A DNA stretch of 64,000 nucleotides from Aphrocallistes beatrix. Lineage: Eukaryota; Porifera; Hexactinellida; Sceptrulophora; Aphrocallistidae. The stretch is taken from assembly GCA_963281255.1 (NCBI GenBank), contig OY725497.1:434001-498000 (forward strand), read 5' to 3'. The notes under the pieces were generated by a model. That model worked only from the letters and a program-made list of their open reading frames with translations. It made no database searches and was not told the origin of the DNA. Position numbers and translations under genes: made by a program. Shown one piece after another: positions 344-62,378 of this stretch (its first letter is position 1; each line of letters starts with the position of its first letter).

Positions 344-804
344 CTAAGTGAGTTCATCTGTTCGGTAATATTCAACCTCAACCGTAGTGAGATCAGCCAC
401 ACAGAAACTGCTCAAGATCTCGCAAATCGCCTTGATAGTGAGACTCGCATCTCTCCGCCCAATTTGAGACGAACCAAACACAGGTGATACGATGTCAATA
501 CTAACAGTTAGGCTGACGTCATCTTCCACACCCATTCTAAGCCTGCTGGGTTGGAAACCTTGAGCGATTATGCTGACATTAAAAGTAAGAGAGAAGACAT
601 CATATCTCATGAGGTATGTGGTGGTCGTATTGATGTAGTGTGAGTTGCTAAACGCAGTAGAATCGTATGTACGAACTGTGACGTAGGCAGGACCAGCGTA
701 TTTCTCATAGTCATGGCGAATGACTGAGACGAATCCAGTATCAGAGAGCTCTCCGACAGAAAACTGCGCACTACTGAAAGAGAAAGTGCCAGCATCGTCA
801 TAGT
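344..804 (-). other. Calx-beta-like C-terminal tail of the giant protein
   Basis: After the third IPT domain comes a segment with F-S-F-S-S-A-Q-F-S-V-G-E and V-S-V-I-R, matching the start of a Calx-beta domain (typically F-S-V-x-E followed by a T-V-x-V-x-R strand). The rest fits less well, and the protein stops about 150 residues later with no hydrophobic anchor or obvious GPI signal. Either the protein is purely secreted, or another splice form with a membrane exon lies beyond the window edge. Confidence 0.5.
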
Positions 805-3800
805 GTACAAAGGTCACGTTGGGATTGATTACAGAAATAGTACGATCCACAGAAACGCTGATAGTTGAGAATCCAAGTCCAGGTGGTACAACGCAAGAAA
901 GGAGTGTATCGTTAACTAAAACTGTGACATTCAGACAAGTGAGAGTTGAATTATCTTCGGATTGGTAGAAAATAACGACAGGAGCCAGCCCATCTTTGGA
1001 ACTACCAGTTGGGCCAAAGTTGCGTCCAGTTATATTAACTTGAGTGTAGACAGATTTGTAGGTAGTCGGAGGGGTAATTGATAGTACGACTGGTGGGCTG
1101 AAGCCACGGAAAGAAGAACGCGCAGTGGTAGCTATCTGGTCTACCGTGATGTTGATATCATGAGGAGATGGACTGAGTGAAGGAGTGTTGCATGTTAGCG
1201 TGTAGTTGTCGATAACAGTCAGATTAGTACAATCCTTTCCGCTTATCGTTACTGAAACTACAGGACCTTCTTGTGATGCAGTCGATGGACCAAAGTTTTG
1301 ACCATATATGGTCACGAAGGTGCTACCAAATCGGGACCCAGCTATAGGAAATATTCGAGTGAATACTGGTGGAGCAAGGTATGTGAAAGCTCTTGCAATA
1401 TCAAGGAAAAGTGTGCTCTTGTCAACCGTTAAACGTAGAGTGATTGGGACGCCAACAATGGAAGAATCAGCGCGAGGCGTGTACGCCATTAGTTCAGTGT
1501 TGTTTTGCGTCACTGTGGTGTTGAGAGTGAGTTGGCCTGCTAGGCTTACCTCAACTTCACGCTCGCCATGGAAACCTGCCAATGAACCAAAATTCGAACC
1601 GACAACAGTTATTTTAGTGCCGCCGATGGAACGGCCAGCAGTGGGACGCAAGGATGTGAACTCCGGAGGGAGGTAGTATGTGAAAGAGGAGACTTGAGTG
1701 GCATTGACTCCATCGACAAGTGGGAGGATACCGTTAGGAACGGTTGCCTTATCATAGAAAGCATTTGAACCAAAACTAATAAAGGTATCATTACGGGAAG
1801 TTGTGAGAGATGGGTTTAGCTTGATGACGGACCAATCTATTGCGACTAGAACGATTATAAACACTTTAAACTCGTTATAAGCGGTCACAGTCCCATTGGT
1901 CAGTCTGTATTTATCATCCGCCAGCAAACCATCTTGCAGAGTGATCTCGAAAAAGTTCACCAATCTTGGTTCCATTGGTTCATTAAATTCGAAGGTGATT
2001 TCTTCTGTGATGAAATTGAAGCTGTACTGTATTAAGTAAGGGGGTGTGGTGTCTGCGGTGAAAATAGCAGCCATTAGCGCGCCACCATCAAAGCGAGGAA
2101 CTACACGATTACCATTCATATCTCGGACGAGGGTTGAATTCCATGTTAACCATGTGTTGTTAAGATCGAGAGCGAAGTTATCGATACTCTTGATGTTGTC
2201 AAGATCTGCTATGTTGAGCTGGACATTCACAACTGTATCGTAACTTAGATCAACACCTATACTGCTGCTGGTCAATCTTCTGGAGTAGAAGGTAGAACTG
2301 TTCTGAGTATTCTGTAGCACCAATGTCTGAACATACAATGAAGAACCATTCACTGTCTCTCTGAAAGTTAGCATCAGTAACCCTCGGTCCATATCCAGGT
2401 GGAAAGAGCGGACTTGAGGGGGGACAGTGTCGGGTGTGAATATTCGCACACGCTCGCCACGCCCATTGATGATCTCCTGTATGGAGTTTCCAATCACATC
2501 TTCGACTAATAGAGTGGAGAATGTAATAAAAGTATCGAATTCACTCGTCATTAGAGATGTCATCCCCTTAATTAGGTTGATGTCATTTAGGTCAAATCGC
2601 AGTGCAATTGTAGTCAAATTCTGGTCCGGATAGCTCCCGCTTGTCAGTCTGTAGAACGAAATAAGCGAGACCAGGTGTGTATACAGGTTCGACTGGATAC
2701 TTATCTGGGAAGCGTCGAAAGAATCGATGTTGACTGTCTCATCAAAAGTCAACAATATCAATTCGCTGTTCATATTGATGTCGTAAGATATTAAAGTCGG
2801 GCTAATGGTGTCTGGAGTGAATAGGGAAACTCTGGTAGCGTTGTTAGTGCTGACACCAATGACAGGATTGCCGATCATGTCTGCAACTGCTCGAGTAGAT
2901 AGCGAGATGTAGGTATTGCTGGGAGAAGTTGCCAAATTAAAAAGTTTCTTAATAGCATTCAAATCATATGTTCCAATTATCACTTCTATTATTGCGACAT
3001 TGGCACTTTTAGTCAAGGTAAAGTTTGGTGATAGACCGGGAGTAAGAGTGTGATACTCGCTCATTACCTCAGAGGAACCTTGGAGACGTAGCTCACTGAC
3101 GTTGAGAGTGAACACATTAACCGCTTCGCTGAAAGTGAGAACTAACACGCCGGTGTTCATGTTCAAGTCAAATGCTAGCAGAGTAGGGTGGGTACTGTCC
3201 GGAGTGAAGGTTCGAACAGGAACAGCATTGGTAAAGCTAATCTCCACGATCCTATTGCTGTTCATATCTTCAAAGGTAGAGTCGGAGAGACTGATATAAG
3301 TGTTGTTTGGTGTCGTTGCTAGCTTTGTAAATGCTTTGATAATATCAGTGTCATATTGGTTCAGTTGGATAGTGAGACTGGGGGAGTTTGGAGTTAGTAA
3401 AGTATTGCGAATAGAGAGAGAGTGGAATTCAGTGATATTCTGCATTTTCCTGTTTTGTATTGTCATCTGATTGAAATCTAAGCTGCTAGCGAGTACAGTT
3501 TCTGTAAAGAACAGGTACAACAGATGACGGTTCATGTCCAGATCGAAGTGTGTCAACTCAGGACGTTTCAGATCGGGGACAAATAGTTCTGTCACTAAAC
3601 CATCTCCAAAATTAATCGAGCTTGTAATCGGGACAACAAAGTTAGACTCAAATGCCATATCTCGAATAGCAAACATAGTCATAGTCAACCAAGCATTGGG
3701 ACGACCAGTGAAGAGATCTGTGTTGTTCTTAATTAAATTCAAATCATACAATGAGAATTTGAGTACCACAACTGTACTGTATTCTGTTTGTATGTTGATT

Positions 3801-6800
3801 CCAACAGTGAGTGTATAGGAAGTGGTAGGATCGAAGAAGTCTTGGAGTGTGAATGCCGTGTGATCGAGTGTCGTAGCATTCACTGTCTCACTGAAGGTAA
3901 GAACGATCACTTCTTCGGTTAGATTGACACTAAACATCAACAGACGCGGGCTGGTGTCATCTGGCAGGTGCCGCGAAACACCTAATGCTTCAGAGTTGGG
4001 CCGGACGACAATTGGGTTGCCTGCCATATCGCGAATAGTATAACCTTCATAAGAGATGAAACATTGACTTGGAAGACGACAAATAATTAACCTCTTAATC
4101 GTGTTCAAGTCATCAATAGCTATGACTACCGATACCTCAATGCCATCCGAATTTGAGGAAAGACCATTAGTCAATTTATGAGAATTATTGGTGCCCTGAG
4201 AATCTTGGAGCGAAATAGAAGTTAATACAATTGTGGATGCATCAACAGTCTCATTGAAGGTAAGCACAAAGATTCCTTGATCCATGTCAATAGACATGTT
4301 GACCAATTTGGGAGTAGTCATATCTCGAGTATACACATTAACCTGTAGTGCTTCCCCGTCAGGGATGGCTGTGAGGTTGTTACCAGCCATGTCGATAATG
4401 GCAGAAGATTCCGCTACAAGGTAGCTGCTACTCTTATCGATGGCAAGCGCCTGGCGGCGTTTGATCTCGTTCCTATCTTCAGCTCCTAAACGAACCACAA
4501 TAATGTGTCCGTCATCATTGATGGTATGTGATTGTGCCTGTCCGGGTGTGAGGGTACGAGGGGAATAGTGATAGGAGTTATTGGACAGGGTTCCACTCTG
4601 GATTGTAAGGTATTCAACTTTCAGTGAACTACTCTCTACAAACTCGTCAAAGGTGAGTGAGAGCAGATCGAGATCTAAATTTAAATCGTATCGAAGGAGG
4701 ATTGGGGAAGTTTGATCAGGGATGAGATAACGCGTTGGTTGTGCATTGGTGATGGGAATTTTCGTGACATAATTATCATTAAGATCACGAATAGTTAAGT
4801 TAGTGAGGGCAAGAAATGTTCCATTCTCTTTGTCAGCCAAGAGTGTCTTATATTTAATGGCATTCAGGTCGATAAAGCCGAGATGCACTGATACAACAGT
4901 GCCATCTTCTGATATAGAATACGATTGGAGTGGATCGAATCCGGTAAACGAACCTTGAAGGAATGGATATTGGATCAGATCGGTTCCGTTCAGCATGAGA
5001 CTGGTTGAATTTTCTCGAATATGGAATATTCCATCCAGATTTTGGTAGGTGAGAGGGTTGTCCATTCCACTACGAGTTGACTGTATACGAATCTGAGTAA
5101 GGTCAAGGGTGTCATTCACCTTGACAGTCTCTGAGAATGTCATATTGAGGAGTCCTAAGTTGAGATCTAGTCCGTAGCTGCGCAGCTCTGGGTTTGTTAT
5201 GTCTTCAGTGAAATTTCGAACTTTTAGAGGATCAAAAAATGAAGCGAAATTACGATTCATATCTTGGATGACAGTGACGCCATAGGATAAGTATGTGTTC
5301 GAGGAGTTGGTTCCAAGTGAACGGATTTTCTTTATCTCGTTCAGATCCTGACTCCCAATTGACACAACTAGCACAGTACTATCTATGTTGAAAGTCTGAG
5401 ACCCGACTGGATAGGGTGGATTGCTTGTAAAGACATGAGAAATGAAATATGGATCTGTTTGCAGTTCAGAATTCTGTAGCGTTAGCTTCGTAACATCAAG
5501 AGAGGACGCATTGACAGTCTCTGAAAAGACCAGTGTCAGGTTTCCAGAATCAATATCTAGATCAAAAGCAATAATATCCGGATTCGTCGTATCCCGAATG
5601 TACTCAAAAGTCCTCTGAGCTGAAGTAAAGAGGATCTGTTGTATTGGATTGCCATACATGTCCGTAATAAAAGAAGACGTGATGGAAATGAATGTTGTAT
5701 TCGTATCAATAGCGAGCTGCGAGAGGAACTTTATCCTGTTCAGATCTTCAGACCCTATGGTAATGGTTAGGAAAGGAGCATCTGTATCCAATGTTCCACT
5801 CAGATTTGTTAATGTGAAATATTGTGTAGGATTATCTCCAGAAGATTGAAGAGTTAATTGAGTTACATTCAGTGTTGATAACCGGACAGTTTCAGAGAAG
5901 AAGAGTGTGAGAGTACCGTTGTTCATATTAAGAATAGAGCTATTTAGTTTCGGAGAGGTGATATCTGGGAAGAATAAATCGGGTGGGCGGGCTGAGGAGC
6001 CATTTAAGAGTGGGAGCACTGACCTCCGATTCATATCAAACAGAGCTCCATCTTCTATCACCAGCCATAGCGTCGTATTGCTGCGACCAATTTCTTTTCG
6101 CTTAATTTCATTGAGATCGTCCAGAGATAATGATAGAGCGACCAGCCTACTGTCAAGAACTGAGAATTGGCTCATAACATAAGTTGGCCATCTTAAGCGG
6201 TGGTAAGAATGTTCATCAGCTGCGTCGACAGATGGATACTCTTGCAGAACTAACAAACTGATATCGATCGAGGATACATTAACAGTTTCTGAAAACGTCA
6301 GGTTGAGTACACCAGAGTTCAGATCAGCCACATAACTAACCAAATACGGACTGATGATATCCATTATGAACTGCGATACAGGAAGGGCAGAAACGGTAGC
6401 AACAGAAGGATTATTTCTCATATCGACAATAGCTCCTGGCATCAGATAGAGATAAGAAGTAACGTTAGAAGTGAAGAGGAATTCTCTGGCTTTGATATTA
6501 TTTAGGTCACTGAATGTAAAAAATACTTGTACTTGAAGGCCATTCACAAGAATCGTAGTACCGTTGGTGAGTGAATAGCTAGAGGTAGAATTGAATTGTC
6601 CACTCCGCAGAGAGAATCTAGTATATACCAAATTAGAAGGACGAACGGGCTCACTGAAGAGAAGTGTTAGCACCCCCCTGGTCATGTTCACGGTATAGGA
6701 CAGCAATCGCGGTCCTAAGGATTCAATCGGAGTGTTGGAGGACTGATGAATAGCCTGAGATATCGCATTCGCACCTGGACTTGTATCTGTCAACGCATTC

Positions 6801-9800
6801 GATTCAATGAGTAGGAATGTGTTACTGATGTTCGTCCAGCAATTCTCAATCAGCTTAATACTGTCGATATCACTCTTTGAAAGGTTTAACGTGAAAGTAT
6901 TAGCATACAGCTCCCCTATTTTCCCATCAGTTAGATTGTATGCAGGAGACCCTGTTGAGGAACATAAAATGCGGAGGCGAGGAATTATAATACTTCCAAT
7001 CAATATAGTCTCGTCAAAAGAGAAAAGTATTTGTCCAGAGTCAAAGTTAACGGAATAATTGAACAGAGTAGGTCTGGTTACATCTTGTGTGAAATTAGAT
7101 GTCATAATCGCGTTAGTATTGAGTCTTGGAACGAGGGAGTTACCATTCATATCCAAGACAGTAGAATTGGTTACTACCAAGTAAGAATCATTGATAAAGT
7201 TGTACATATGGACAGCGGCAGTGAGTTTATTTAAATCAGTGAAGCCAAGTGTGACAGTTAATATGTTGCTATCTTCAGAGCTGGAATAAGTGGGAGGGAA
7301 AAGGCTAATAAGAAAGTTTGAAGCTGTCACATTGTTCTGTAATTTCAACTCTTGGATTTGGAATGTAGAAGCGTTGACGGTTTCACTGAAGAAGAGAGTA
7401 AGAACCCCAGAATTCATATTAACTTGAAACGTGTCTAGCTCAGGACTGGTCATGTCAGAAATGAATTCGCGCACCCTCATACCGTCCACAGGTACTAAGG
7501 AGAGATCGGCCATGTCAGAAACGGCTAGGTTCGTAAGCGAGAGGAAAGTTGTGTTAAGCGAGGTAGCGAGACTGGATAATCGTTTTATTTCGTTCAAATC
7601 AGAAATTCCAAGCTTGACTGTATAAATAGTTGAATCTACCTGTCCAGCTATCAGCCTTGAATCTAGTGTCAAACGATAAGAAACATAATAGGCGGAAGAA
7701 GGAGAGTGTAGCAAAATGTCAGTGATATTAAAAGTAGAAGTGTTAAGAGTTTCCGAAAATGTAAACATCAAAATTTCTGAATCGAGATCCAAGATATAAG
7801 ATCTCAACATCGGGTGGGTAATGTCAGCTGTGAACATTCGCACTTCTTTAGCTTGGAATTGAGAAACTGATTCGAGTAAATTGTTATTCATATCCAGGAT
7901 GCTCCCAAAGGCAATAGATAAGAAAGTGAAAGGTGGAGAACTTGCTAGACCTGGGAGTGCCTTGATCGCATTTAAATCTTCATCTCCAATACTCACAGTA
8001 ACTGTAATGTCATTGTAACTGTTTGTTGAATAAGAATTAGTTAGCCTGTAAGACGTGCCGATGGTGAGATTGGTGTTAGACTGGATCAATATATTAGGAA
8101 TGATGAGAGATGTTGCATTCACAATTTCACTGAAATGAAGAGTGAGAGATCCTTTATTTAAATCAAAATCAAAATCTATCAGAGAAGGCATGGTCATATC
8201 TTGGAAAAAACTGGCTGTTCCAAGCATAGAAATCGGGACGATAGGATTCAGGAAAGTATCAGTTAAGAATGAGCTTGGTGTTGAAAGGTAAGTTGTGTCC
8301 ATCGACACAGCGAGAGAGGTAAGATTTTTCAATTGGTTGAGATCTGTGAAATTCAGAAGGATAAGAACAATATCACTTATGGAGGAAATGATCTGACCAC
8401 TTGTCAATGTGTAGGACACGTTATTCCGATTTAAGATTGTTATCTCGGTTAGGTTGATTGAGGTTAGTAGCACTGTTTCACTGAAGAATAAAGTTAAAGT
8501 TTCAGAAGTGAGATTTAATTGGAAAGAGTAAAAATATGGTCTAACTGCGTCTGCGGTAAAATTTCTCACTTCACTCGCAAAGTTTGATGGTATTTCTACA
8601 ACTGGATTATAATTCATGTCGACCAGAGTTACGTTAGGGAAAGAAATAAAAGTATTGCTAGAATTGGTGACCAAGTTAAAATATCGCTTGATATAGTTCG
8701 TGTCATCTCTCGTTAGATTCACAATTAACACAGTACTATCTTCCATGCTCGAAGTTCCTCCTGTCAAAGTTAGATAATTCGCTGATTGAACGGCTGGATC
8801 AGTGAGGGTTAGCGATTCTCGATCTTGTAATGTTAGATTCTGTATTGAGAGACTACTAGCATCAACCGTCTCAAAAAACACAAGAGTAAGTTGATTAGAA
8901 GTGAGATTAATGTCGAAGTAATCAAGAGGTGGAGAAGTTAGATCAGGAATTAACATGGCAGCTTGCAATACTGCTACAAAGTAGAGTTTATTACCATTCA
9001 TATCTTGTATCGTATCTGAGGTAAGAGCGATATAAGTATCTACCTCACTATCAGCTAAATTCCGAACTCTTTTCAATTCATTTAGATCTCTAACCGTTAT
9101 CTTAATCGAAATAATGTAATTATCATTTCTTGAAAGTGTCAAATCGCCTCTAAGCACATGAGATAGAGATCCATTCAAATTCTGAATGGTAATAGTGGTT
9201 ACATTCAAAGAACTTGATTCGACCACTTCACTAAATGTAAGATTAAGAACTTCTGCATTTAAATCGAGTATAAAACTATCTAGACGAGGCCGTGTAGTGT
9301 CTAGAGTTATGTTTTGAACACGTTTAGCTGATGAAAAAGATATATTGACAATCTCGTTGAAATTCTGATCGCGAACAAAAGCAGGGAAAGAAATAAAAGT
9401 GTTAGAACCATTCGCATAAGAAGCTAGATTTCGTCTGATTTTTATGGCATTTAAATCTTGGAAATTGAGTCGAATAGTAATAACGTGTGAATCTGGAGAG
9501 ATAACTGTGCTGTCAAATAACGTATAATATTCCGAGCCGATGCCATTCTGACGGCCCTGTAAAGTTATACCCCATACATTGATTGAGCTGGAGTTCACAG
9601 TCTCACTGAATGAGAGTACTAATGTTTCATTATCTAAATCAAGGTCGAAGTTAACTAGAGTTGGCATCGTTTCATCTATAGTGTAGTTCAATATTGATCG
9701 AGCAGCAGCATTGGTTCGTGGAATCGAGTTAACCTGATTGCCTTGATAGTCTACAATAGCGAGAGAATCGATTGACAGAAACGTATCCCCTGGTCTCGTT

Positions 9801-15800: not shown

Positions 15801-17984
15801 TTAATGTCAGTAGCAAGTTTCGTCAGGCGTTTAATTTCGTTAAGGTCGTTGATTGAGAGCTGGAATAAGATCTCCGGGTTGTCATAACTAGAAGTGCTAC
15901 CACCACTCAATCTGATGGAATTTTCCTGTACAAAAGGGACATCTCCTTGAAATGAGATTGCAGATGGGGAGAGAGAAGTGGCATTGACAGTTTCTGAGAA
16001 TTGAAGTGTCAGCAATCCAGAGTTTATATCTAAGCTGAAAGATGAAAGTTCTGGTCTCGTGGCATCAGATACATACACTTGCACGGGAGCAGCTGTTCCT
16101 GGGGTTAAAGCAACAAGTTGGTTATCTCTAAAATCGAAAGCAGAAGTATTTGTCATGTAAAGATACGTGCTTGAATTAGAAGCAGCAACCAATTCCATAC
16201 TCTTCAGAATGTTCAATTGATCCCTTATAAGAGTGAGGGAGATAACAGGAGGGTGCCCTGGATAAAAATTGGTGCCAATTGGAGGAACTGCAGTTCCATC
16301 AATATGCAGAAAACTCCTAGAATTGTCAAAACGATTGGGATCGGTCGAATTAATATTAGGTAAAGAAAGGGATGTTTCGAACATTGTCGCTGCAAGCGTT
16401 AGGCGAGATGGATATATAGTTCTTATCACTTCAGAGAAAGTTAAGTTGAGAATACCAGAGTTCATGTCCAAGCTGAAAGAAATTAGGGTAGGCCTTGTCA
16501 TGTCCTGGCTGGGGTAGAGAGGGTAAGGAGATACAGAAATAACACCAGTCGTATTGATTGGATTATTATTCATATCAAGGATGGCAGAAGTCATAAGTTG
16601 TATACTACAGTCTGTTAGTGTATCTCCGCGACACAATTCGTTTCTCTTTATCAGGTTAATATCATAATCATCTAGAAACATTGAAATAACATCACCATCA
16701 CGTAGAACAACCAGGCCGGCAGTCAGTCGATGGAGGAAGTTAGAAGGGAGATATCGCTGTAATGTTATTAGTGTAGTATTGAGGGAAGCTGCATTTACTG
16801 TTTCAGAAAAGCTAAGATTTAGCTGCGGGGAATCGATGTCTAGGGAGAAGCTTGAGAGAGTTGGCGGTGTGCTGTCTTGGATGAAACCTGAAGTTTGTTT
16901 TGCTCGACCATTCTCTACGGGAACAAGGTAGTTCTGCTGCATGTCGTGAATAGCACTAGTTCGTGCTGTGATAAATGTATTATCGCTTGAGGTAGCCAGA
17001 TCCGTTCTGCGCTTAACTTCATTCAAATCAAAATTAGATATTCTGACCCATATTATCGGCCCGAATTTTGTTGTGATTCCCATTGATGTAGAAAGTGAGA
17101 CGGATAAATTACTGAATTCTACATCGACCTCAGGCTGGAGAGAAATATCTGAAGTGTTCAGAGACGCGGGGTACACTGTCTCAGAGAATGAAAGAACAAG
17201 AATGCCAGTGTTCATGTTAATATCAAATACATTGAGTACGGGCGGAGTTCTATCAACAGTGTATTCGTCTGCTAGACGAGCATTAAGTCCGTTAATCAGT
17301 GGGATCACTTGGTGCAAGCTCATATCTTGAATAGCAGTGGCGTCCATCACAAGGTATGAGGTCAGGTTAGACTCAGCGATACGCAGAGATTTGATATTGT
17401 TCATGTCGTTCAGCGTGATGTTGAAGATAACTGTAGGCAAATTATCCGTGTTTACGATGTAACCATTTGTCAGTCTGTAGGACTTATCCATAATTGAAGT
17501 CGTGTCAGAAACGGCCTGGATGGTAAAGGCTGTGAAATTAATACTACTAATATTCATTGTCTCTGAAAAGGAAAGAGTTATTTGGTCTGCATCCATGTCA
17601 AGATGGAAAAAACGCAGCCGAGGAGCGTTGTCATCACAAGCAGGAGAAGTTGCTGATAGGGCTCTAGTTCTGTCAATAGGAACGATCGGATTGAACCTGA
17701 TATCACTTATGAAGCTCGATGTAATGCTAATGAAGAGGTCATTTCTGCACGTGAACAAGTCTGGGAGCTGTTTGATTCTGTTCAAATCCTGCTCTGTTAT
17801 CTCAATAACAAGCATTAGACCGTATGTGACAGAGGATTCGGCAGCAGTGAGCGTGTAGAAGGAACTGGGCACAGAGAGGTTGGAAGAAGATTGGAATGTA
17901 ATCTCCGAGGTAGAGAGTGTGTCGATGTTTACCGGCTCATCGAAATTGAGACGAAGAATACTGGTGTTTGAGTCTGCTGTAAAT
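344..17984 (-). CDS. Giant gene exon 14 (17,641 nt, terminal)
   Basis: One uninterrupted frame of about 5,880 codons encodes some 43 units, then three IPT/TIG domains and a Calx-beta-like tail, ending at the stop at 344-346. The exon begins at the acceptor TTTAG|A (17984), completing the split Ser codon from exon 13. A coding exon of this size is exceptional for any animal gene. The unbroken frame across diverged repeats shows the whole array is under coding constraint. Confidence 0.88.
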
Positions 17985-35900: not shown

Positions 35901-38900
35901 TCCGTTGAGTACGAGTCTCTCACCTCCAAGAGTGAGGTTCCTCTGTGAGAGAATCAGAAATTGCGAAATGTTCATGGTAGGAGGGGACACAGGTTCTGAG
36001 AAGTTGAGAGTAATGATTCCAGAGTTCAAATCAAAATCCATACCGCGTAGAGTTCCTGAAGAAACGTCAGGCGTGAAAAGTGTAACTTGCAATGCATCGA
36101 ACTCAGAGATAGCAACGACGCCATTCGAACTCATGTCAGAGATAGCCAAGGAAGTGATGGAAAGGAAGGTTGTAGTGCTAGAAACCGCGAGATTGGTAAG
36201 TCTCTTTATCTCATTAAGGTCTGGTTCAGATAGATAGATAAGGACATCAGGGCTGTATATCGTCGGGGTGTGTGAGGGCAGGGAGAGGGTGTGTATCAGG
36301 AGAGGATCAGTAGTGTTGTGAGTCGGTTGTAGAGTAAACTGTGAAATCGTAAGGCTAGTCGCATCTACTGTCTCTGAGAAATGGAGCATGACGTACCCAT
36401 CATTGACTGACAGGTTGAAGCTCTGTAAGATTGGCGGAGTAGAGTCAAGAGTGAATATATCAACTTGACGCGCATTGAATCCATTGACAATTTCTATAAT
36501 CATTCTCCCATTCATATCATTGATGGTAGAGCTGGTTAGCGTGAGCCATGTTGTAGCCTTAGTCAATCCAATTTGAAGTGCCTTGACCCGATTCAGGTCA
36601 GGGAGGGTGAGGTTAAACGCTACTGAGGTGTCATCATCCAAAGTCAGCAGGTAACCACCTGTCAGGGTGTGATAGACGGAGGTGTTAGACGATTGCTGGA
36701 GGGATATCTGGTCATATCGTAAGGTAGAGATATCAATAGTTTCGTAGAAGTTTAGCCTAAGTTGCCCTAAGTTCAAATCGAAATCAAAAGTACGCAGCAC
36801 TGGTCGAGTAGTGTCGTTTATAAATACAGATGCGACGATGGCAGAAGGAATCTGTACGGGAGTGACAAGGTTACCGGACATATCCATTATCGCTTGATCA
36901 GTGAATGTGAGATAAGTATTGGAAATGTTCGTATAGAGATCTTCCATCTGTTTCAGAACATTAAGATCGTCAACTGTTAAATTCAATATAATCTGTAACC
37001 CATTAGGACTGGGAGTGTTTCCTCCAGTGAGGCTATAGGATTCGGTTGGTGAGCGGGAATTAGTCAATGTGAACGCTGTGGGTTCTAACGTATCAGAATC
37101 AACCACTTCGTCGTAGTTCAAAGTAAGAATGCCCGAATTGAGGTCAGTATGAAAATTCAATAGCTCAGGTTGGATAGTGTCAGGAATTAGAAGTGTGACA
37201 TTTCGAGTGGATTGGAATGCTGGGTTTCTAATCAGAGCGAGATCATAAACAGCACCAAGTTGTATTGAAATATAAGTGTTGTTCAACATGGTAGCAATAC
37301 TTCTATCAAGTTTGAGCTGATTGAGTGTGAATGCAGTTAATGTAAATCTTATATCTAAATCATTGGGTGGAATATGGGTGCCATTAGATATGTTAATGAC
37401 TGAAGAAACGCCCGCTAAGTCACTGTGGAATTTCAACTTGGTAAAGATGAGCGATGAATAAGAGACAGGCTCGTCAAATGAGAGGGTGACTACTGCCGTG
37501 TCTAGATCTAGATCGAAGCCTAGGAGGTATGGACCAGTCGTATCTGGAGTGTAGATGCGAACCTGCTGAGCATCTGACGCAAGAATAGGAACGATTTTAT
37601 TTGCGTTTGCGTCTGAGATAAAATCTTCTGTGATACTAATGAATGTAGTGTTAGGATTTTGAGCTAGAGTGGTGAGTAGTTTGAGAGAGTTGACATCCGT
37701 TGTCTGATCGAGGATTAGAGTTATCTGAGGCCCGTCCAAGTCATTAGTAATTGTATTGAGCGTGAGCGAATAAGAAGTTCCTCCACTAGATCCAGACTGT
37801 AAAGTGAGTTCTGAAACTTGCAAAGTATCAACAGCTACAGTCTCGGAAAAGTAAAGTTTAAGATATTTCTGCTCCATGTTGAGATCGAACCAGATAAGTT
37901 CTGGTTTAATGTCGTCAGCTGAGAAATCAGAAGGAGGTAAGGCTTGAGAAGGATCGATTGGATTCAATAAATTCCTGTTCATGTCTTCAATCGTACCTGC
38001 CTCGGCAGCTAGATAAGTTGTAGGCTGGTCAGCGGCTAGGTTTCTCAGTTTCTTAACTTCGTTCAGGTCATCTAATCCTAGGTAAATTATAATCACATCA
38101 TCAAACGGAAGGGACCCCCTGCTGGAGGAAGGAGATAGGACATGGAACTGTGTGGACACACGCTTCTGAACATCGCTCTGAAGAGAAATCCCACTAATAT
38201 TGAGAGAGGATGTATTCATAATGTCTGAAAAGGTGATGACTATTCGTTCAGAAGTCAAGTTTATAGTGTAGGACAGGATTGAAGGTCTGATCTTGTCGGG
38301 GTAGAATTCGTGTGCAAATGGAGATGCATTCCTTGGAATAGGGATAACCGGATTCGAATTCATGTCTGTTACAAGATTCTCACTAAATGAAATGTAGGTA
38401 CTCATGCTAGATACAGCAAAGTTTGGATATTCCTTGAGAGCAAAGAGATCATCTTGACCGAGTAGGATGGTGAGTACGGTAGAATCTTGAAGAACGATAT
38501 CGCTAGGGTTATTTCCAATCGCGGTAAGATAGCGAAAATTTATCAAATAATTCGTGAGATTCAGCTGTCTGCCTGATTGAAGGAGAATATCTGAAATGTT
38601 AAGCGATGTAGATTCAACCTAAAATGTGAATAAGATTTCAAATGTAGGTATTGATGAACAAAATGTAAACAAGATAAACAAATAAAACATACCGTCTCAT
38701 CGAATGTCAAGTGCAGGGTCTCAGAAGTGAGGTTGAGAGAAAATCTTACTAAATTGGGCCGAGTTGTATCAAAAGTGAAGTTAGAAACTATGAGAGGGTT
38801 GGTGCCGAATATTTCATTGGCATAGTTAGACATGAAATCACTGAGTACGTCTTGGATGGATTTCTGTCCGAGGGTGAGATAGGTTGTTGCAACAGATTCA

Positions 38901-41900
38901 GAAAGGCCTTCAAGTCGTTTAATCTCATTCAGGTCTGAGATTGTGAGATTGAGGTAGACAACTGTATCAAACTCACTACTACTGTTTCCCCCTGTGAGAG
39001 TGAACAGTGGCTGGTTGGGTAGGGAGGTGTGCTGAAGAATTAAAGTGGTGGGATCCAGGGTAGTGCCATTAACTGTCTCATCGAATGTCAGAACTATTCG
39101 TCCGATATTCATATCTAAGTCAAACGACAGGAGAGTCGACGGAGTTCTGTCTGGGGTGAATTGGCTTGCTATCAGCGGGGTTGTCAGGCTGATGGGCTGA
39201 AGAGGGTTATCATCAAGGTCTACTAGTGCCCCCTGACGTATAGCTAAATAGGAGTTATTGATGTAAGTAGCTAATGAGAGCAGCTCTTTAATCCGGTTAG
39301 TGTCTGAAACCGTCAGGGAGATGGCGAGTTCTGGTGAATTAGGAGATTTGACAAACTCTCCACCAGTCAAGTTGTACGCCTGCCCGTCTAGGCCTACTAA
39401 GGTAATGGGCTCTGTGGTGAGATCCAGACTATCCAGCTTTACGGTCTCAGAGAAATCAATCGTAATCGTTGGAAAAAGAGGTTCATCTGTGCCAAATTGA
39501 GTAGAATCCATGTCCAATGTCCATGATGTGATCCTGGGAGGGGCGCTATCTGGGGTGTACTGAGAGCAGGTGAGGGCAGCAGAGGAGCCAATTGACACAG
39601 AAGGATTGTTTGAGAGATCTCGAATCGTCTCAACCAGCATTGAAATATGTGTCGTACTTGCATCAATAGCGACAAAGGTCTCGGCTTTAAGATTGTTGAA
39701 ATCAGCTGTAGTGATTGGAATTTCAATAGAATAACCGCGAGGAGAGAGAGATACCACAAAATCTGAGAATGTGTAACTGTCAGAAGAGGTCCCATCGTTA
39801 GTACGGTGTAAAGTTATCTTCGTGAGGTCGAGAGTACTTGGTTCGACTGGATCATCGAATGTCAGTGATAAGGTACTAGTATTCAAGTTGAGACCACAAT
39901 CAACAGCAGTTGGTCCGGTTCTGTCGGGGAAAACAGGAAAAAAAGGTTGAAGCGCATTTGCCTGGGAAATAGCATTAACCATGACGCCAGATGCATCCTT
40001 TATTAACTGCGATGTTGTAGATAAGAATGTATCAGAAGTTGAAGTAGCAATGTTTGAGTTGTTTTTTAGGCTGAAAATATCTGCTTCATTGAGCAATATT
40101 GTGATAGCATTGACAAGACCTGGGAAAGATTGGAGGGTACCTCCCGTTAGGGGGATAGACGGACCACTCGATTGGGACGCGTGGATGGTGAGAGCATCCG
40201 CGGAAAGAGACGAAGCATTCACTGGCTCATTGAATTGCAGTGATATTGTATTCAAATTAAGGTCTAGCTGTTGGAATACAATAAGACTGGGAGGGGTTAT
40301 ATCAGCAAAAAAAGAAGAGACAAAGAGAGCAAATGGAGACAATATAGTACTGGGGATGTTGTTAGAGAGATCGCGAATAAGATTGTTAGTGTGACTGAGA
40401 AAAGTGTCTGCGATAGAAGTAGCAAGGTCTGAGATTGATTTGAGACTGTTAATATCATCGATGAGTAAGCTGAAAGATAAAACCGTATTAGAAAAGGTGA
40501 CAGTTGGGGTACCCTCCATTCCTTGGAGTGTATGATTCTGAGAGGGATCAATAGCTCTATTTTGTAGCGTAATCGCATCAGCGGAGAAATGGAGTAACTC
40601 TATCGGTTCGTCGAAAGTGAGATTGATCATACCCGAGTTAAGGTCAAAAGAAAAGTTAAGAAGAACAGGACCAACGTCATCTCCCTGAAACATTCTAGCC
40701 TGAATAGCACCCGCAGCAGTAACCGCATCAATGAAGTTATCAGACATGTCCTGTATAAAGGTGCGACTGAATGAGAGCTGAGAGCTCCCTGGGGAGGTGA
40801 AGAGACGGGGGTTAGCCTTGATGAAGATCAAATCTTCAGAGTTAATCAGTACTGTGAGATTCTCGCTATTCATCGAACTAAGCACATTTCCCTGGAATCT
40901 GAGTTTGTATTGCTGAGTAGGATTCAGTGCAGCATCTAATAGCGTGATGGCTGGCAGGGAGAGAGAGGTGTGGTTCACTGTTTCATTGAAATAAAGTGCC
41001 AATAGACCGGTATTTATATCAATTTCAAACGCCTCTAGGATGGGAGGCGTGGTGTCAGCGACGTATACGGCTGCTTGTGTGGCGTAACAAGTCAGATCCT
41101 CTATCAAGATATTAACTTGGAGCGCATTCGAAGAGCTAACAGGCAGTACCTGTAGATTATTATAATTCCTTATAGCGTTCTTGGATAGTGAGATGAAAGT
41201 GTTGTTAGGTTCTTTAGCATAGGGTGTGAAAATGTTCTTGAGTACGAGTTGATCTGATTCATGTAGCGTTATGAACAGATTTCCATCGTACTCCCTCGTG
41301 TAGACAAGGGAGAGTAGTGAGAGAGTGTGGGTGAAGGTGCTCTCGTTGAGCCTAGCAGAGTTCTGGAGAAGGATGGCACTGATGTTCAGTGTTGTGGGAT
41401 TAACGGCCTCATCGAAATATAAAGACAGATAGTTATCATTGAGATTCAGATCAAAGTATATGAGACGCGGGCGAGAGGTGTCTTGTGTAAACTGCACAAC
41501 CTGGATAGGGGAGAGGAGAGAAATTGGTTGGTTCAGGTTATTGTTTTGGTCAATAAATGCTCCTGAATCGAGCCTAATAAAAGCGGTAGATAGATTGGTT
41601 GCAAGGTAGGGGTTTGACTTTAGGGCGTTTGCATCTTTGTAGCCAAGCTGCAACTCCACCTCCAATCTTCCTGTTGTATTGTCCAACACGGTGGAATCAG
41701 AGAAACGATACTGAATGAGTGTGGAAGACACATTATTCTGAAAGACGATGCCAGGAGCCATGAAGAAGGAAGGGTCTATAGGCTCATCGAATGAGAGTTT
41801 AATGATAGAAGAGGTAAGGTTCAGAGTAAAGCTAACCAAGTTAGGACGCACTAAATCAGGGATAAAAGATCGCAGCTGAATAGAACCACTGGAAGCTGTT

Positions 41901-44900
41901 ACATTCCTGAGATAGATATCTAACACAGTCTTCTCCGTGATGCGAATAAACGTGTTGGAGATGGAAGTAGCGAGATCTCGACTGATCTTAATGTTATCAA
42001 TATCATTCTTTCCAAGTTTGAAAGTTACCAAGAAGTCATCGTTGGGAGCAGCTAGTCCGCGAATCCGCTGTCCTGGCTCAGTTATAACTTCGTTGTATTC
42101 AGTGACAGCAACAAGTGGAGCGAGAATTATAGGATTAACCTGAGCAGCATTACTCATCAACTGATAAGAGGTTGAATTTAGGAGAGGCTGAGAAAACAGT
42201 GTTATACTTTGCGCATACAATGTTTCTGACAAGACAACATCATCGAATTGTAGAGTCAGGGTCCCATTTGTAAGGTCAATATCAAAAGCAACTAAAGAAG
42301 TGGGAGAAGAACCAGGGATGTAGCCGTCAGGTTGCACATGTCTGGCCGAGTTGTTGGTTACCTCGACCAGTGGGTTGAACGCCGTGTCTTGAATAACGCC
42401 AGGCTGGAAGAAGACAGCTGTAGAGTAGGCACTATTGCCTAAACTGAAAAACTGGAGGAAGGAGCGGTAGTCTTCTCGAGTGAAGAAGATACGAACCTAT
42501 AAATATAAGAAAATTTAAACCTTACTTAAAATTTCATCCCAATTTGTTTTTTTCGTACATACCTCTTTGTTAAGGGAATCTACCGACTCGATTTCTCCTC
42601 CTCCCAGCGTGATAAACGCATAGCTATAAGGCTGTCTGGAGATAGTTATATTCGTGAATACGACAGTCGATATGTCGACTGGCTCGTTGAAGAGAAGGTT
42701 GAAAGAACGAGATTCCAAATCAAACTTAGTGAAGGCAACTAGATAGGGGTCCAGTCTATCAGGGGTGTAGCTGATAACTCTCAGAGCTGATGGTCCAATG
42801 GAAACTGGAGTAACTGCGTTATTACTGACATCAGTAATGAGTGACGAATTAAAGGCGATGTAGCAATCTTCCAAGCGGCTACAAATTTGTCTGTAGTTCT
42901 TTATCCAATCTAGATCTGATTGCGTGAAGGAGTAAATAATCGAAAATCCGTCAGATCTTGAGAAGCTCCCGCTGGAGGGAGTGAAGGAGTTGTTTGAACC
43001 GAAAGGGTTGTGGAATACGATCTGAGAAACATCAAATGAGGCTTCTGAAATGATCTCATCAAACAAGAATACAGCCAATCCAGTACTAGCGAGACTGAGT
43101 TCCCATTGAGTTAGCACTGGAGATGTAGTGTCGTATATGAACATAGAAGGTTGGAACTGCTGGTTGGGAGGTGAGTAGACCGCATTGTTCGACTGATCCG
43201 TAACCAGTTGAGAGTTGAGAGTGAGGAAGCATGAACTAATTGATATGCAGAGTTGTATATTTAATTTGATTCTGTTCAAGTCGTAATCACTGAGAGTAAG
43301 GTTGAGTGTGGATTGAGACAGAGAGCTCTGTAGAGTTGATTGCTGCGAGATTGAAAGGTTGTATGTGGCATTTGCGAAACGTTCGTGTAAGAAAATACTC
43401 TCTGCGTTAAAAGAGGAAGAGCGTACAACTTCTGAGAATACAAGACTGATCAAGCCACCACCATCCAGATCTAATATCGCGAAATCTAACACTTGAGGGG
43501 GAATAGTGTCTGGTATGTACTGAGATACCAAGAGAGGGAGGGATGTTGAAATTGGCATGAGAGGATTCGAGGTTGTGTCGGTTAGGAGGGAGGCAGTAGC
43601 TGACAGGTAGCATGAGGGGGAAGCTAAACATATCTCCATCTGTTTCAGCAGATCCAGTTCTTGAGGTGAAATGGTGATAGATACTTCTGACAGCAGAGCT
43701 GTTGAAGAGGGGAGAGAGTTGGTTAGAGGGAGAGAGGAGCCTTGTGCATTCTGGAGAGAGATTTCAGTCAGTGAGAGAGAAGAGAGATTCACAACCTCAT
43801 CGAATGAGACGGAAATCAATCCAGTGTTGAGGTCTAGATCGAACCTGAATAAATTTGGTCTCGTGGTGTCAATGGTGATGGAAGAAAAAGCTCGTGCCGC
43901 AGAGGCGAGCGCTGGAGTAACCTGATTAGAATGCATGTCCTGGACCAGGGACGAAGGAAAAGAAATGAAAGAATTGCTAATATCTGTGAGTAGATCAGCC
44001 ATACTCTTTATAGCATTTCTATCCGCATCACTCAACTCCAGCGATATAGCAGTGTTGATAGGTCGAGTGGCCGTGCCAGCAGTTATTACGAGCGATTGAG
44101 ACGGGCTCGATGCACTGTTCTGTAACCGCACAGCTTGAGGAGTGAAACTTTCCAGTGAAACTGTTTCATCGAATTCTAGTCTCAGAATGCCAGTGTTCCC
44201 GTCGAAGTAGGCCGCAGTGAGTCTGGGACTGGTCCGGTCCAGGGAGTGGTTGGAAGCAGGCAGAGCTGATGTGGAGGGAATGGGGACAAGATTATTTCCG
44301 GCGAAATCCTGCACGCCATTAGAGGTGACACTTAGAAATGTGTCCTCAATGGAAGTGCTCAGTGGGTGCAGCGCGGATATGCTGTTGAAATCTGCATTAG
44401 AAATGTCTATGATGAAGTCGGTTCCGTCTGAAGACTGAGTGGAAGAGCTGGAAGTGAGGGAGAAGCTCTGTGTCGGAGTGAGTCTCCTGTTCTGTAGCGT
44501 GAACTGGTTGATGCTCAAGCTAGACACCTGCACCGCCTCACTGAAGATGAGAGTGAGGATCCGAGCTTGGAGATCCAGTGAGAACATTATCACCTAACAA
44601 CACAGGCACTTCACAACTATGTGATATTTCGTGGTATGTTAAAGGAAAAGAACAAACCTCAGGCCTAGTAGAGTCTGCAATGTAGGTGTTGACGTTTAGA
44701 GCTGAAGTAGGCTGGATGGGAGAGATTGGGTTCGCGAAAGAATCCAATACTAATGAACTGGGGAAGGATAGGTAGGTGGAGATGACGGAACGAGCCACTG
44801 GGGATATCTTCAACCGATTCAGATCATTGGTCGTGAGTAGGAGTCTCACATTCGGACTGTCTGAGTCAAGAAGTGTCCCCTCCGTGATTGGGAGAGAAGA

Positions 44901-47900
44901 ACCAAAACCGAACATGTCCGACTGAATGGTGAGTGCTGCTGGTGTGAATGTCCCAGCACTGACAGTCTCAGTGAAAGTGAATGAAATGAGTCCGGAGTTC
45001 AGATCCAGATCGTAGGAGGATAGGGCAGGAGATCTCATGTCAGGAGTAAGGATGGAAACTTGAAGTTCAGAGGCGATCGCAGTAGCTTGGTTAAGATTTC
45101 CGCTCACGTCTTCAACTGTGAAGTTAGATAAACGGATGAATGTGGAGTGTAAGTAGCTGCCTATCCTCGCTGCTTTCAAACTGTCTAGATCCAACTGAGA
45201 TAGAGTGATAGAAACGACGTTGCTGTTGATGGTGGTTAAAGTCTGACTGGTGTTGAGAGTGTATGCGTAGCTGAATCCTAGAATGCTCCGACGGTCTCCC
45301 AACGTAACACCAGATAACTAAAACAGTCAATCGAATGATAGTATATGAATCTATAGGAAGGAAGGGTTGGTTTATTTCCTACCTGGATGGAAGAGATGAG
45401 TACTACTTCATCGAAAGTTAGGACAAGGTTCCCTTCATCCATGTCTAACTCAAAAGCTAGGAGAACAGCTCCAAAGGTATCAGGATTGAAAAAGACTGGA
45501 GGCAGTTGGTACACTGGAGTGAGTGGGTTACCAAAAGTGTCAACAATCGCAGAGCTGGAAGCATTCAGTAATGTATTGCCAAGGGGTATAGCTAGGTTTG
45601 TCTGGACTTTGATAGCATTGAGATCTTGCTGTGAGAGAGCTATGGCTATGATACTATCGGCATTGGATGGTTGTACTGACGAGGGAGTGGTTAGATTGAC
45701 TGAGTGCGTTTGGAAGTATAATACAAGACTGCTCGTTCTTAGACTAGATATCTCAACCTGTGAACAAGCGGGGATTAATACAGAAGAACCATGGATAATT
45801 CTGAAATTACAAATATATCTTACTGCTTCATCGAAAGAAATTTGAAGGACGCCATTAGTAAGGTCGAGTGAGTAGGATAAGATAGAAGGGGAGGTGGTAT
45901 CCGGAGTGAAGACAGTAGGGAGGACCGCTTGTCCGTCGGTGATAGCGAGTACGTCCACGCCATAGAGATCGTCAGCAAGACTAGCCGCCAAGCGCAAGTA
46001 TGTGCTACTAGCGTCCTTAGCAACAAATTGATTCTATAGAAATGCAATTAAATTTCATAGTTAAATATTCAATAAGAATTAATGGCATTGTCTAGAGACG
46101 TAACCTGTTTCACTCGGTTGAGGTCTGGATTCGAGATAACGATGTGAAGGACAAACCCGTCCTTAGCACCAGGAGCAGGAGACGTACTGTTCCTGAACAG
46201 AGTGACGTACCCCCCGCTGTGAGCAGTAGCGGAGGATTGGAGTGTGATCGCATCTCCGCGGAAGCTAGCAACGGATACTCCGTCGCTAAACGTGAGATTC
46301 AACTCTCCTGAGTCCATGTCTAGTGAGAACTCCCTCAGAACAGAAGGGGTCGAGTCCATGGTTAGTGACTCTGCCTAAACGAAACGAATACAATATTTAA
46401 AATCTCCACCGCACAATCAAATGATGTGAATGGCTTACTTGTAAGGGATTAGCCGTTTGAATGTTAAGACTGGGAACGCCAGAAGTATCTGTAACCGCTC
46501 CTGTCTCTGTGACTATCATGGTGTCAGCGGAAGAGGTGGCGAGAGAAGGGGCGTTCTTGAGTTCAGTGATGTCCACCTCATTCAATAGTAACTGAGTGGT
46601 GAGAGATCCAATGTGTGTGGGGGTGAGTAGGGTGCCTAACGTAAGAAAATGTTAGAATGACTCAATTGGTTAATACCTCGCGTATGCAGTACCTCCTGTT
46701 AGTCTGTAGGTGTTGGCAGACAGTGTAGCATTAGTGATGGAGATCCTAACGGGCTGTAAAGAAGCAGGGAGTGTGGGCTCATCCCAGGTGAGAGAGAGTA
46801 CGTGTGAATTCAAGTCGAGGGAGAAAGAGAGGAGAGAGGGGGAGGAGGTGTCTCCTCTGTAGTCCGTGACTTGCAATGGAGTAGAACGGAGGATGGGATC
46901 GAGGAAATTGGGAGAGATCGCTAGATCTTGTATGGTTACAGCTGTAGCACTAAGGAATGTTGTCTCCTACATGTATAGTAAAATAAGATGACGGAATAGT
47001 GCTTAGTATTTAAACTGAATTAATAAAAGATTTACGCGTGAAATAGCGAGGCCAGTCCTGACGAGTATAGCACTGACGTCATCATCGCTTATGATGCAGT
47101 CTATTATTGTACCGTCTAGGGATACCGAATTGAGGGATTGGAATGTGTGGATATAGTCCGGATCAGACTGGGACGGGGAGGAGAGGAGAGTTAGACCGGA
47201 AGCATTCAGTGAACTGACACGAACTGGCTCGTCAAATTCCAAAACCAGCACTCGGTTACTAAGGTCCAAGTTGAAAGAGGTAAGATTCGGAGAGGTGTTG
47301 TCAGGTACGAATGAGAGCGGAGTTCTCAAGGTGAGGGAAAGATTGCCAGGAATGGGGACGATGCTATTCGCGGCCATGTCTGTAATGAGGTCTCCTGGCG
47401 CGGGGATAGTAATCCAGCAGTCACTGATGTCAGTACACACCTGTTGAAATGGAGTTAAAAGTAGATACAAAATAACAGAGCTCAGGAAGAGTGAGTACTT
47501 GTGGTTTGAGTTTGAGAGCATTGAGATCTTCTGCTCCAATCTGAAATGCGAGCAATTCTCCGTTGGAGCAAGAAGGACAGCTGAGAACAGTGACGTCATA
47601 GTACTCCGCTGAAGACGGAGGAGAAGTGACGTGTGCCTGCAGTCTGAGAGATGCGCTGAGACTGGATAGCAGCATCGGCTCTGAGAAGCTGAGAGTGATC
47701 ACTCCAGTGTTGAGGTCGAATTCTTTGTACCCCCTCTCTATTAGCTCGGGGGGCGTGGAGTCTGGCTACAGAGACATGGCATTTGAATAGACATACCTAC
47801 CTACCTACCTCTACCTACAATAAGACATACAATGAATTGAGAAGCTTGATCAGCGTCTTGTTGCGAATAGGCTCGTAGCTCATTAGACCCTTCCTCGACC

Positions 47901-48274
47901 CCATTCCCACTTTCAATGCTCAAGAATGTGTCGGCTAGCGTTGTACCGATGCCAGCATTCAGTTTCACATTGTCCAAAACTTGGTTGGAGAGTTGAAGCG
48001 AGAACTTGTTTCCGTTTGGAATCCCGGGGGTGCAACCAGATAACTGGACCTGGGGAACTGTTTGTCCAGCTGGGGCTTGTGCCCCTTGTAGATAAAACTT
48101 GGAACAATCGATATTAGAAATGCTTACAGAAGAGACACCATTGATGGTGAAAGAGAGAGTGCCCGTATTTAGGTCGAAGTCCCATGTTTGGATGGCAATT
48201 TGAGCTTGAGTGGGCAGGATACTGAAAAGCGAAATACTGATCAGGAAGAAGAAGTGATAGAAAGGGCGTTTCAT
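344..48274 (-). CDS. Giant secreted Ig-like repeat protein, 14 exons, about 15,685 aa
   Basis: I joined 14 exons: 48274-47831, 47765-47499, 47440-47036, 46966-46693, 46635-46439, 46374-46105, 46033-45824, 45757-45383, 45317-44658, 44593-42563, 42496-38693, 38618-29622, 29545-18063, 17984-344. Every intron is GT-AG and 57-78 bp, each junction restores the repeat consensus, and the total (47,058 nt) is divisible by three. The protein has a signal peptide, about 120 units of roughly 125 residues, three IPT/TIG domains and a Calx-beta-like tail. Each unit runs P-x-L-x-x-F-x-L-D-[ML]-[ND]-x-G, L-T-F-[SD]-E-[TP]-V-N, D-L-N-x-I-K, L-A-T-x-x-x-N-T-[YF]-L-S and D-M-x-x-N-x-[VI]. The first half resembles bacterial-type Ig-like domains (Big_5/SbsA style). 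No transmembrane segment is seen, so a secreted matrix or adhesion role is inferred. The function is unknown. Separate genes are unlikely because no internal start, stop or promoter separates the exons. Confidence 0.88.
805..1671 (-). other. Three IPT/TIG domains near the C-terminus of the giant protein
   Basis: Three consecutive segments begin near 1668, 1374 and 1099. Each opens with P-P-[EV]-[FV], then a Pro-containing hydrophobic strand, then G-x-x-[VI]-x-[VI]-x-G-x-N-F-G, the hallmark of the IPT/TIG (plexin and transcription-factor Ig-like) fold. The second and third each contain Cys pairs as in extracellular IPT domains. The family occurs in plexins, Met receptors and fibrocystin-type proteins, which fits an extracellular location. 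The domain calls are confident; their role here is not known. Confidence 0.8.
18063..29545 (-). CDS. Giant gene exon 13 (11,483 nt)
   Basis: About 30 units are encoded without interruption. The exon ends with S-P-K-L-T plus two bases of a Ser codon (phase 2) at the donor TTC|GTAAGT; exon 14 supplies the third base and continues F-T-A-D-S. Several units carry extra cysteines: the C-x5-C-W variant near 26550-26582, C-x7-C-F near 26953-26988, and a three-Cys unit near 22540-22620. One unit (22440-22560) has an insertion rich in Gly and Asn. Confidence 0.88.
29622..38618 (-). CDS. Giant gene exon 12 (8,997 nt)
   Basis: A single open reading frame of 2,999 codons encodes about 24 units. It begins with V-E-S-T-S-L-N-I-S after intron 11 (38619-38692) and ends with V-L-Y-F-Q at the donor CAA|GTAAGT; exon 13 resumes with E-I-I-N-I, completing an F-[SD]-E-x-[VI]-N motif. 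The units are mutually diverged, and I saw no near-identical neighbours, so recent slippage is unlikely. Confidence 0.88.
38693..42496 (-). CDS. Giant gene exon 11 (3,804 nt)
   Basis: About ten units are encoded. The exon begins with V-R-I-F-F-T-R-E after intron 10 (42497-42562) and ends within an L-T-F-D-E-T|V motif at the donor ACG|GTATGT. Two units depart from the norm: one (near 41060-41130) has a longer linker containing a cysteine, and one (near 39460-39540) has about ten extra residues between the L-D-M-D-S segment and the F-S-E-T strand. Confidence 0.85.
42563..44593 (-). CDS. Giant gene exon 10 (2,031 nt)
   Basis: This exon encodes about six repeat units. It starts after the acceptor at 44594 with V-I-M-F-S-L-D, completing a unit begun by R-P-E in exon 9, and ends at the donor G-A-G|GTATGT. 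Three of its units carry the paired-cysteine variant (C-x5-C followed by Y or F) where most units have A-T-x-x-x-N-T-Y. Both flanking introns are phase 0. Confidence 0.85.
44658..48274 (-). CDS. Giant gene exons 1-9: small N-terminal exons
   Basis: Nine exons of 444, 267, 405, 274, 197, 270, 210, 375 and 660 nt encode the signal peptide and the first eight or so units. Introns 1-9 are 47766-47830, 47441-47498, 46967-47035, 46636-46692, 46375-46438, 46034-46104, 45758-45823, 45318-45382 and 44594-44657. All are phase 0 except intron 4, which is phase 1. The intron 4 donor (G|GTACTG at 46693) was chosen because it restores R-L-T-G-G-T-L-L-T; a donor 12 nt further on breaks the frame. The intron 6 donor (46105) is the least certain. 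The first unit is atypical, with a Cys pair and a weak F-S-E segment, and may be an N-terminal cap. Confidence 0.8.
45758..45823 (-). other. Intron 7 of the giant gene: 66 bp, stop-free and in frame
   Basis: The donor (GCA|GTAAGA) and acceptor (TTCACAG|GTTGAG) are good, and splicing restores F-D-E-A-V-E-I-S-S. The intron is exactly 22 codons and has no stop in frame, so retention would insert 22 residues, including one Cys, in the middle of the conserved F-D-E-x-V strand. Splicing is the better reading because the insert disrupts a motif kept in nearly all other units. Confidence 0.75.
48203..48274 (-). other. Signal peptide of the giant repeat protein
   Basis: The first 24 residues open with Met-Lys-Arg, continue with a hydrophobic stretch rich in Phe, Leu and Ile, and end at a plausible cleavage site after T-Q-A. 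This supports 48274 as the true start. It is the only signal peptide in the 48 kb gene, which argues that all downstream exons belong to one secreted product. Confidence 0.75.

Positions 48275-52348: not shown

Positions 52349-62378
<10,030 letters not shown>

Follow-up and report, generated by a model that had tools for sequence, protein, structure and literature searches.

The question raised by this locus is whether four minus-strand stop-to-stop frames of 5,904, 3,828, 3,014 and 1,311 codons, which almost abut one another, belong to one gene, and what kind of protein such a gene would encode. They lie in a stretch of 64,000 nucleotides from the glass sponge Aphrocallistes beatrix (contig OY725497.1; C11:434001-498000 in our numbering), referred to here as the window; the genome searched comprises 100.5 Mb in 28 contigs. 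A preliminary description had proposed a single gene for a secreted protein built of immunoglobulin-like (Ig-like) units. In this work, a single gene was likewise obtained, at 344..48274 of the minus strand, and we consider it probable that it gives rise to a secreted, acidic, sequon-rich chain that would form a very long extracellular filament. The chain would consist of 120 tandem Ig-like domains of the bacterial S-layer type, followed by three TIG domains and a Calx-beta-like domain. Statements on the published literature below refer to excerpts of the sources cited.

Structure of the gene

Introns were sought as GT..AG pairs ranked by splice signals, with donor and acceptor windows set by hand at the frame breaks. 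The first-choice splice chain had 14 exons and 47,121 nt; each junction was then rescored with a repeat profile, and junctions 1, 2 and 11 were altered. The final model, from ATG to stop, comprises 14 exons and a coding sequence of 47,058 nt with a single terminal stop, and it encodes 15,685 residues. The preliminary description had arrived at the same exon number and the same coding total, without junction coordinates that could be compared, and the GT-AG borders that it gave for 13 junctions were found at 13 of 13 introns here. Its single start with a signal-like segment at the 5' end and its single stop were also recovered, the hydrophobic segment (residues 1-24, 48203..48274) being judged by eye, and its mass of about 1.7 MDa agrees with the 1,727,787 Da computed for the predicted protein. 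This protein has an isoelectric point of 4.32, 370 N-X-S/T sequons and 52 Cys, and no membrane segment was seen in it by eye.

The introns are 57-78 nt long, and 11 of the 13 are in phase 0. On the minus strand, the exons follow one another as exon 1 (47831..48274, its 3' end uncertain at junction 1), exon 2 (47499..47765), exon 3 (47036..47440), exon 4 (46693..46966), exon 5 (46439..46635), exon 6 (46105..46374), exon 7 (45824..46033), exon 8 (45383..45757), exon 9 (44658..45317), exon 10 (42563..44593), exon 11 (38693..42496, 3.8 kb), exon 12 (29622..38618, 9.0 kb), exon 13 (18063..29545, 11.5 kb) and exon 14 (344..17984, 17.6 kb). An intron-rich 5' part (47831-42497) thus stands against a four-exon remainder (42496-344): ten of the 13 introns interrupt the first 1,711 residues, and most of the protein is supplied by four huge exons. 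This pattern suggests either that an intronless 3' part has grown or that introns have been lost there. The last four exons (3,804, 8,997, 11,483 and 17,641 nt), already visible as stop-to-stop frames, carry no stop apart from the terminal one in exon 14, and over such lengths chance is excluded.

The splice choice was ambiguous at two junctions. At junction 1, the combined score ranked an intron at 47808-47762 first, which would add 18 nt in frame; the intron at 47830-47766 was retained because it has a usual length and a slightly better domain fit (134.0 vs 133.3 bits). For junction 13, a 207-nt intron came out above the retained one in the combined score (208.6 vs 194.8 bits), whereas the splice signals were far better for the 78-nt intron that was kept (8.5 vs 3.0). 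The conclusion is the same with either choice at both junctions. An uncertain, possibly cryptic in-frame GT-AG intron of 45 nt lies within unit 112 (4909..4953, minus strand), where excision of 4953-4909 improved the score of that unit against the profile by 15.6 bits; among 30 in-frame candidate introns tested, two raised the score (by 15.6 and 3.1 bits), both in this unit.

The codons of the array provide a separate view of its age. Identical residues in all pairs of window-gene units are written with the same codon in a fraction of 0.345 of 232,527 cases, compared with 0.3435 expected from codon usage, and the 20 closest unit pairs give 0.346 vs 0.339. Synonymous sites have thus become saturated under a motif that is still conserved, which shows that the units are old and that selection, strong on this shared motif, keeps their frame. 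Chance or a pseudogene is ruled out by 15,685 stop-free codons together with saturated synonymous sites under a conserved motif. Separate tandem genes were also considered. Ordinary ones appear unlikely, because the model contains no internal stop and leaves no large gap between adjacent units, the distance being about 14 residues at most.

Repeat unit, predicted fold and C-terminal domains

The array of 120 contiguous units (residues 23-15242, 1676..48208, minus strand) was obtained by hmmsearch with a unit profile. The 120 units above 20 bits have a mean length of 126 residues and cover 15,154 of the 15,685 residues, and with the predicted fold they bear out the preliminary count of about 120. 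Since the profile was derived from the very protein on which it was run, this number is a parse and not independent evidence; independent support for the unit comes from its recurrence on two other contigs, C7 and C20, and from the fold model. Six positions (D1, P5, F23, E25, K81 and D104) are kept in at least 90% of 108 units, a set that omits the 12 units cut by introns, and the mean identity among the window-gene units is 31%.

The predicted unit structure has the same domain fold as the Ig-like domains of SbsC and SbsB. Bacterial S-layer proteins gave the best fold matches, and single modelled domains superpose well on SbsC. Big_5 (PF13205), one of the families that the preliminary description had suggested for comparison, was the most frequent weak Pfam match (11 of 108 units at E<=0.1, best 1e-4), and on three longer pieces it scored 21.1, 15.8 and 13.2 bits, all below the curated cut-off of 23.6. 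No NCBIfam family matched more than one of the 108 units, no PDB sequence matched at E<=1, no SLH match was present in the pieces scanned, which are part of the protein, and Calx-beta is not among the families recognised in 108 of the 120 units.

The C-terminal cap comprises 443 residues with three IPT/TIG domains (PF01833, cut-off 20.9) at 1430..1666 (38.7 bits), 1127..1369 (52.4 bits) and 809..1087 (28.8 bits), all on the minus strand. They are followed at 563..799 by a borderline Calx-beta-like domain (PF03160), which scored 27.2 bits alone against a cut-off of 27 and 23.6 bits in a longer piece.

Titin is a megadalton chain of very many Ig-like domains as well, but it is intracellular and built of I-set and FN3 domains. 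None of the 108 window units matches I-set, which is absent from the 23 families that they match at E<=0.1, and one of them weakly matches an FN3 model (FN3_7, E 0.072). Titin isoforms have about 3-4 MDa (PMC5986978). SbsC and SbsB of Geobacillus stearothermophilus form two-dimensional lattices, and SbsB combines three SLH motifs with six other domains (PMC12175726), whereas the window protein, from an animal, repeats its unit 120 times and is capped by TIG and Calx-beta-like domains. The ice adhesin MpAFP of Marinomonas primoryensis is alike in its 1.5 MDa and about 120 tandem Ig-like repeats (PMC4083281). However, its repeats are identical 104-mers that depend on calcium, whereas the window units share 31% mean identity and a role of calcium in them would be hypothetical. 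Tandem Ig-like repeats that depend on calcium characterise the large bacterial adhesin extenders, to which MpAFP and SiiE belong.

Sister genes and growth of the arrays

By sequence, the window gene is one of three putative giant paralogous genes, of which that on contig C20 would be about three times longer. Only the best candidates were scored in the genome searches, so that match counts are lower bounds. A 998-residue array query gave at least 94 matches, and those listed were all on C11 (the window gene), C7 and C20; a 692-residue query gave at least 120 matches in the same three places. On the other hand, the query with the TIG/Calx-beta cap matched only itself in the genome. The contigs C7 and C20 are 5.28 and 2.84 Mb long, and across the three genes 398 copies of the S-layer-type unit have been read so far. 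On C7, one stop-free stretch (C7:2759787-2793503) has 11,239 codons (33.7 kb) and 89-90 units; upstream of it, five open pieces contain a further 16 unit matches, some of them partial. The predicted C7 protein may or may not be longer than the window protein.

The open frame at C20:1708475-1855678 has 49,068 codons according to the search program. Seven pieces amounting to 23,523 codons were translated and contained no stop in one frame register. The remaining 25,545 codons rest on the program figure, which may merge frames that a stop separates; its value of 9,733 for one match in the window is the sum of two frames across the stop in intron 13. The left end at 1708475 is preceded by a stop, and the frame is closed by a stop at 1855679. 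One match overruns this end and holds one TGA and one TAA, in accordance with stops at 1855679 and 1855694. The frame would contain about 394 units (an estimate at 124.5 residues per unit); it ends at position 54 of the 124 profile positions, over its first 122 residues only a weak partial unit is recognised, and the next 9.5 kb to its right yielded none. It is likely from this reading of the frame that the C20 gene has more exons or that its array is truncated. Downstream, at C20:1858754-1862230, transposase-like and retroelement-like open frames were noticed in translations inspected by eye.

A protein of such length has been reported from A. vastus, namely Avas.s016.g412.i1 with 49,014 residues and 5.34 MDa, encoded by one 147-kbp exon (Francis et al. 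2023, PMC10282587). It resembles the C20 frame in length (49,014 residues vs 49,068 codons) and exon structure, and C20 shares the unit of the window gene. No start in the left end of the C20 frame, as far as it was read, gives exactly 49,014 residues. Very probably Avas.s016.g412.i1 is the C20 sister gene; it would be the counterpart of that sister and not of the window gene, the two being likened by size and exon structure. Because the C20 frame ends in mid-unit and starts with a weak partial unit, exons may be missing from the single-exon model published for the corresponding A. vastus gene. The giant size class claimed in the preliminary description was thus borne out, but the window protein is not the largest of its kind, being one of three giants of the same unit. 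PKZILLA is another protein of record size.

The preliminary description had also found no described protein like it, and this needs to be divided. The largest sister fits a protein already in print, and very probably the extreme length of this sister has been published in one sentence (PMC10282587), in a paper whose main text lacks the words 'titin', 'immunoglobulin', 'adhesion' and 'aggregation factor'. On the other hand, no description of the domain, the three-gene family or the window gene was found in excerpts of the open-access literature, preprints aside. The portions of the Oopsacas minuta genome paper that were consulted mention neither the domain nor the window gene; nor do those of a survey of huge proteins, which name no sponge.

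The mean identity of units is 0.29-0.31 both within and between the three genes, and in three comparisons no collinearity of whole arrays stood out between genes. Block periods were assessed by shuffling the unit order 1,000 times. Periods of 18 and 36 units emerged for C7 and one of 23 units for the largest C20 piece, in both cases reached by none of the 1,000 shuffles; a smaller C20 piece had no significant period (p 0.24 at 23). The arrays of C7 and C20 grew in multi-unit blocks. A recent block expansion was also sought in the window gene, where no period beats the shuffled order (best offset 16, p 0.19).

The window gene is bounded on both sides. A V-ATPase subunit G gene (E 4.3e-26, left flank 9471-9851) lies on the same strand about 0.5 kb past its stop, no further exon was seen in the 0.5 kb between them, and the previous upstream frame ends, by eye, about 0.5 kb before its ATG. 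Neither AATAAA nor ATTAAA occurs in the stretch examined 3' of the gene, which leaves the gene end undecided. The spacing to V-ATPase G is very tight, and a gene with WD40 and coiled-coil regions lies beyond. On the other side of the giant, frames with P-G-P motifs at 49052-49500 have by eye the look of sperm-tail PG-rich repeats, an identity left unconfirmed by a 95-residue piece that matched no Pfam family at E<=0.01. Further features are an IRF DNA-binding domain gene (54575-55387, Pfam E 6.3e-32), short A-rich tandem repeats with periods of 21-22 bp (58842-58982) and a ubiquitin-conjugating enzyme (63150 to the window end). Contig C4 carries another IRF match, interrupted by one TGA, and both IRF and fibrillar-collagen COLFI domains were found in the genome. 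Wnt ligands have been reported lost in glass sponges (PMC5684314); no Wnt match was found in this genome, but the same search was also silent in 14 of 14 control genomes, so the absence is unsupported.

Proposed function and rival explanations

The gene structure, unit array, predicted fold, selection and paralogues were computed, and we infer secretion, rod shape, length, calcium binding, glycosylation, anchoring and body location. The S-layer-type domains would follow one another head-to-tail with almost no linker and give a filament of the order of 0.5 micrometre. At an assumed 4 nm per unit, the window protein would measure about 0.5 micrometre and the C20 protein about 1.6 micrometre (for the estimated 394 units or so). 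Ions at conserved Asp/Glu positions would stiffen the chain, and a role of calcium is proposed because of these conserved acidic residues; the in vitro assembly of SbsB lattices is calcium-dependent (PMC12175726). N-glycans would coat the chain, and the TIG/Calx-beta cap would be its C-terminal end for attachment or crosslinking. Several points weigh against this proposal. The signal-like segment was judged by eye. A modelled three-domain chain superposes poorly on SbsC (root-mean-square deviation 18.3 Å), the template-modelling scores (TM-scores) of the Foldseek matches listed are low over the chain (0.13-0.25 by query), and the model of the C-terminal cap, made from a single sequence, is unusable (predicted local distance difference test, pLDDT, 35.4).

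The chief rival explanation, which we regard as rather unlikely, is that the giants form a non-adhesive, mucin-like glycocalyx that protects the surface of cells or cilia, like FMG1 in Chlamydomonas, and not a load-bearing tether or matrix filament. FMG1B is also a giant N-glycosylated extracellular chain and was the top Foldseek match (E 1.7e-7), and the 370 sequons of the window protein are in line with such a role. FMG1 is N-glycosylated, and its loss raises adhesion, hence it is read as adhesion-regulating (PMC12021028). However, FMG1B is algal, the match has 13% identity and a TM-score by query of 0.22, and the solved chain has 3,878 residues. Moreover, TIG and Calx-beta-like domains form the end of the window protein, in which no membrane segment was seen by eye, whereas FMG1 is by name a membrane glycoprotein.

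It is unlikely, in our estimate, that the one open frame yields mostly shorter products through internal promoters, intron retention or proteolysis. Retention would have a direct effect at two places, as intron 13 holds an in-frame stop and intron 12 (76 nt) shifts the frame. In A. vastus, long reads sometimes fuse neighbouring genes, at about 1:100, and transcript limits were set by read numbers (PMC10282587). Against this stand the lack of any internal stop, the short gaps between units and the synonymous saturation with a conserved motif across all units, as described above.

A recent bacterial acquisition or a contaminant is very unlikely. It would agree with bacterial S-layer proteins as the best fold matches and with a bacterial Ig-like family as the commonest weak Pfam match, but the gene has thirteen short introns, its neighbours include V-ATPase G and IRF genes, and paralogues are located on two other large contigs. 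Furthermore, one three-unit query against genomes of prokaryote species, with a reach limited to close relatives, gave 16 pattern matches, none of which was confirmed. An ancient bacterial acquisition may nevertheless have taken place. The core of an aggregation-factor-like proteoglycan is scarcely credible: aggregation factors are taken here to have many Calx-beta domains and a Wreath domain, and although a large, apparently secreted sponge protein with a C-terminal Calx-beta-like domain recalls them, one borderline Calx-beta stands against 120 S-layer-type units.

A more specific role is quite doubtful, namely that the three giants are the filter filaments of glass sponges, in the fine mesh of the collar glycocalyx, in the flagellar vane or in both. 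Such chain lengths would suit the dimensions of a fine collar mesh and a vane: the fine collar mesh of A. vastus measures 20 x 70 nm (PMC3236749), and vanes have been modelled as 0.7-1.4 micrometre wide (PMC7755389). In choanoflagellates, the composition of vane filaments is stated as open, and the vane survived proteinase K, so its authors favour carbohydrate or glycoprotein (PMC9671500). This resistance counts partly against a filter of bare protein. If the filter role were true, an animal would have an extracellular net built from S-layer-type domains.

These results place a predicted giant tandem Ig-like extracellular protein, with an S-layer-type unit, in an animal. They turn a one-sentence curiosity, the 49,014-residue protein of A. 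vastus, into a family of three giant genes. If made as proteins, the products would be among the longest animal chains (1.73 MDa for the window gene and 5.34 MDa for the published sister), and they raise the question of how coding sequences of 47-147 kb are transcribed, translated and exported. The giants are candidates for unidentified extracellular filaments of sponges. Thus, as far as the predicted genes indicate, this animal seems to build extracellular material out of protein chains that rank among the longest known.

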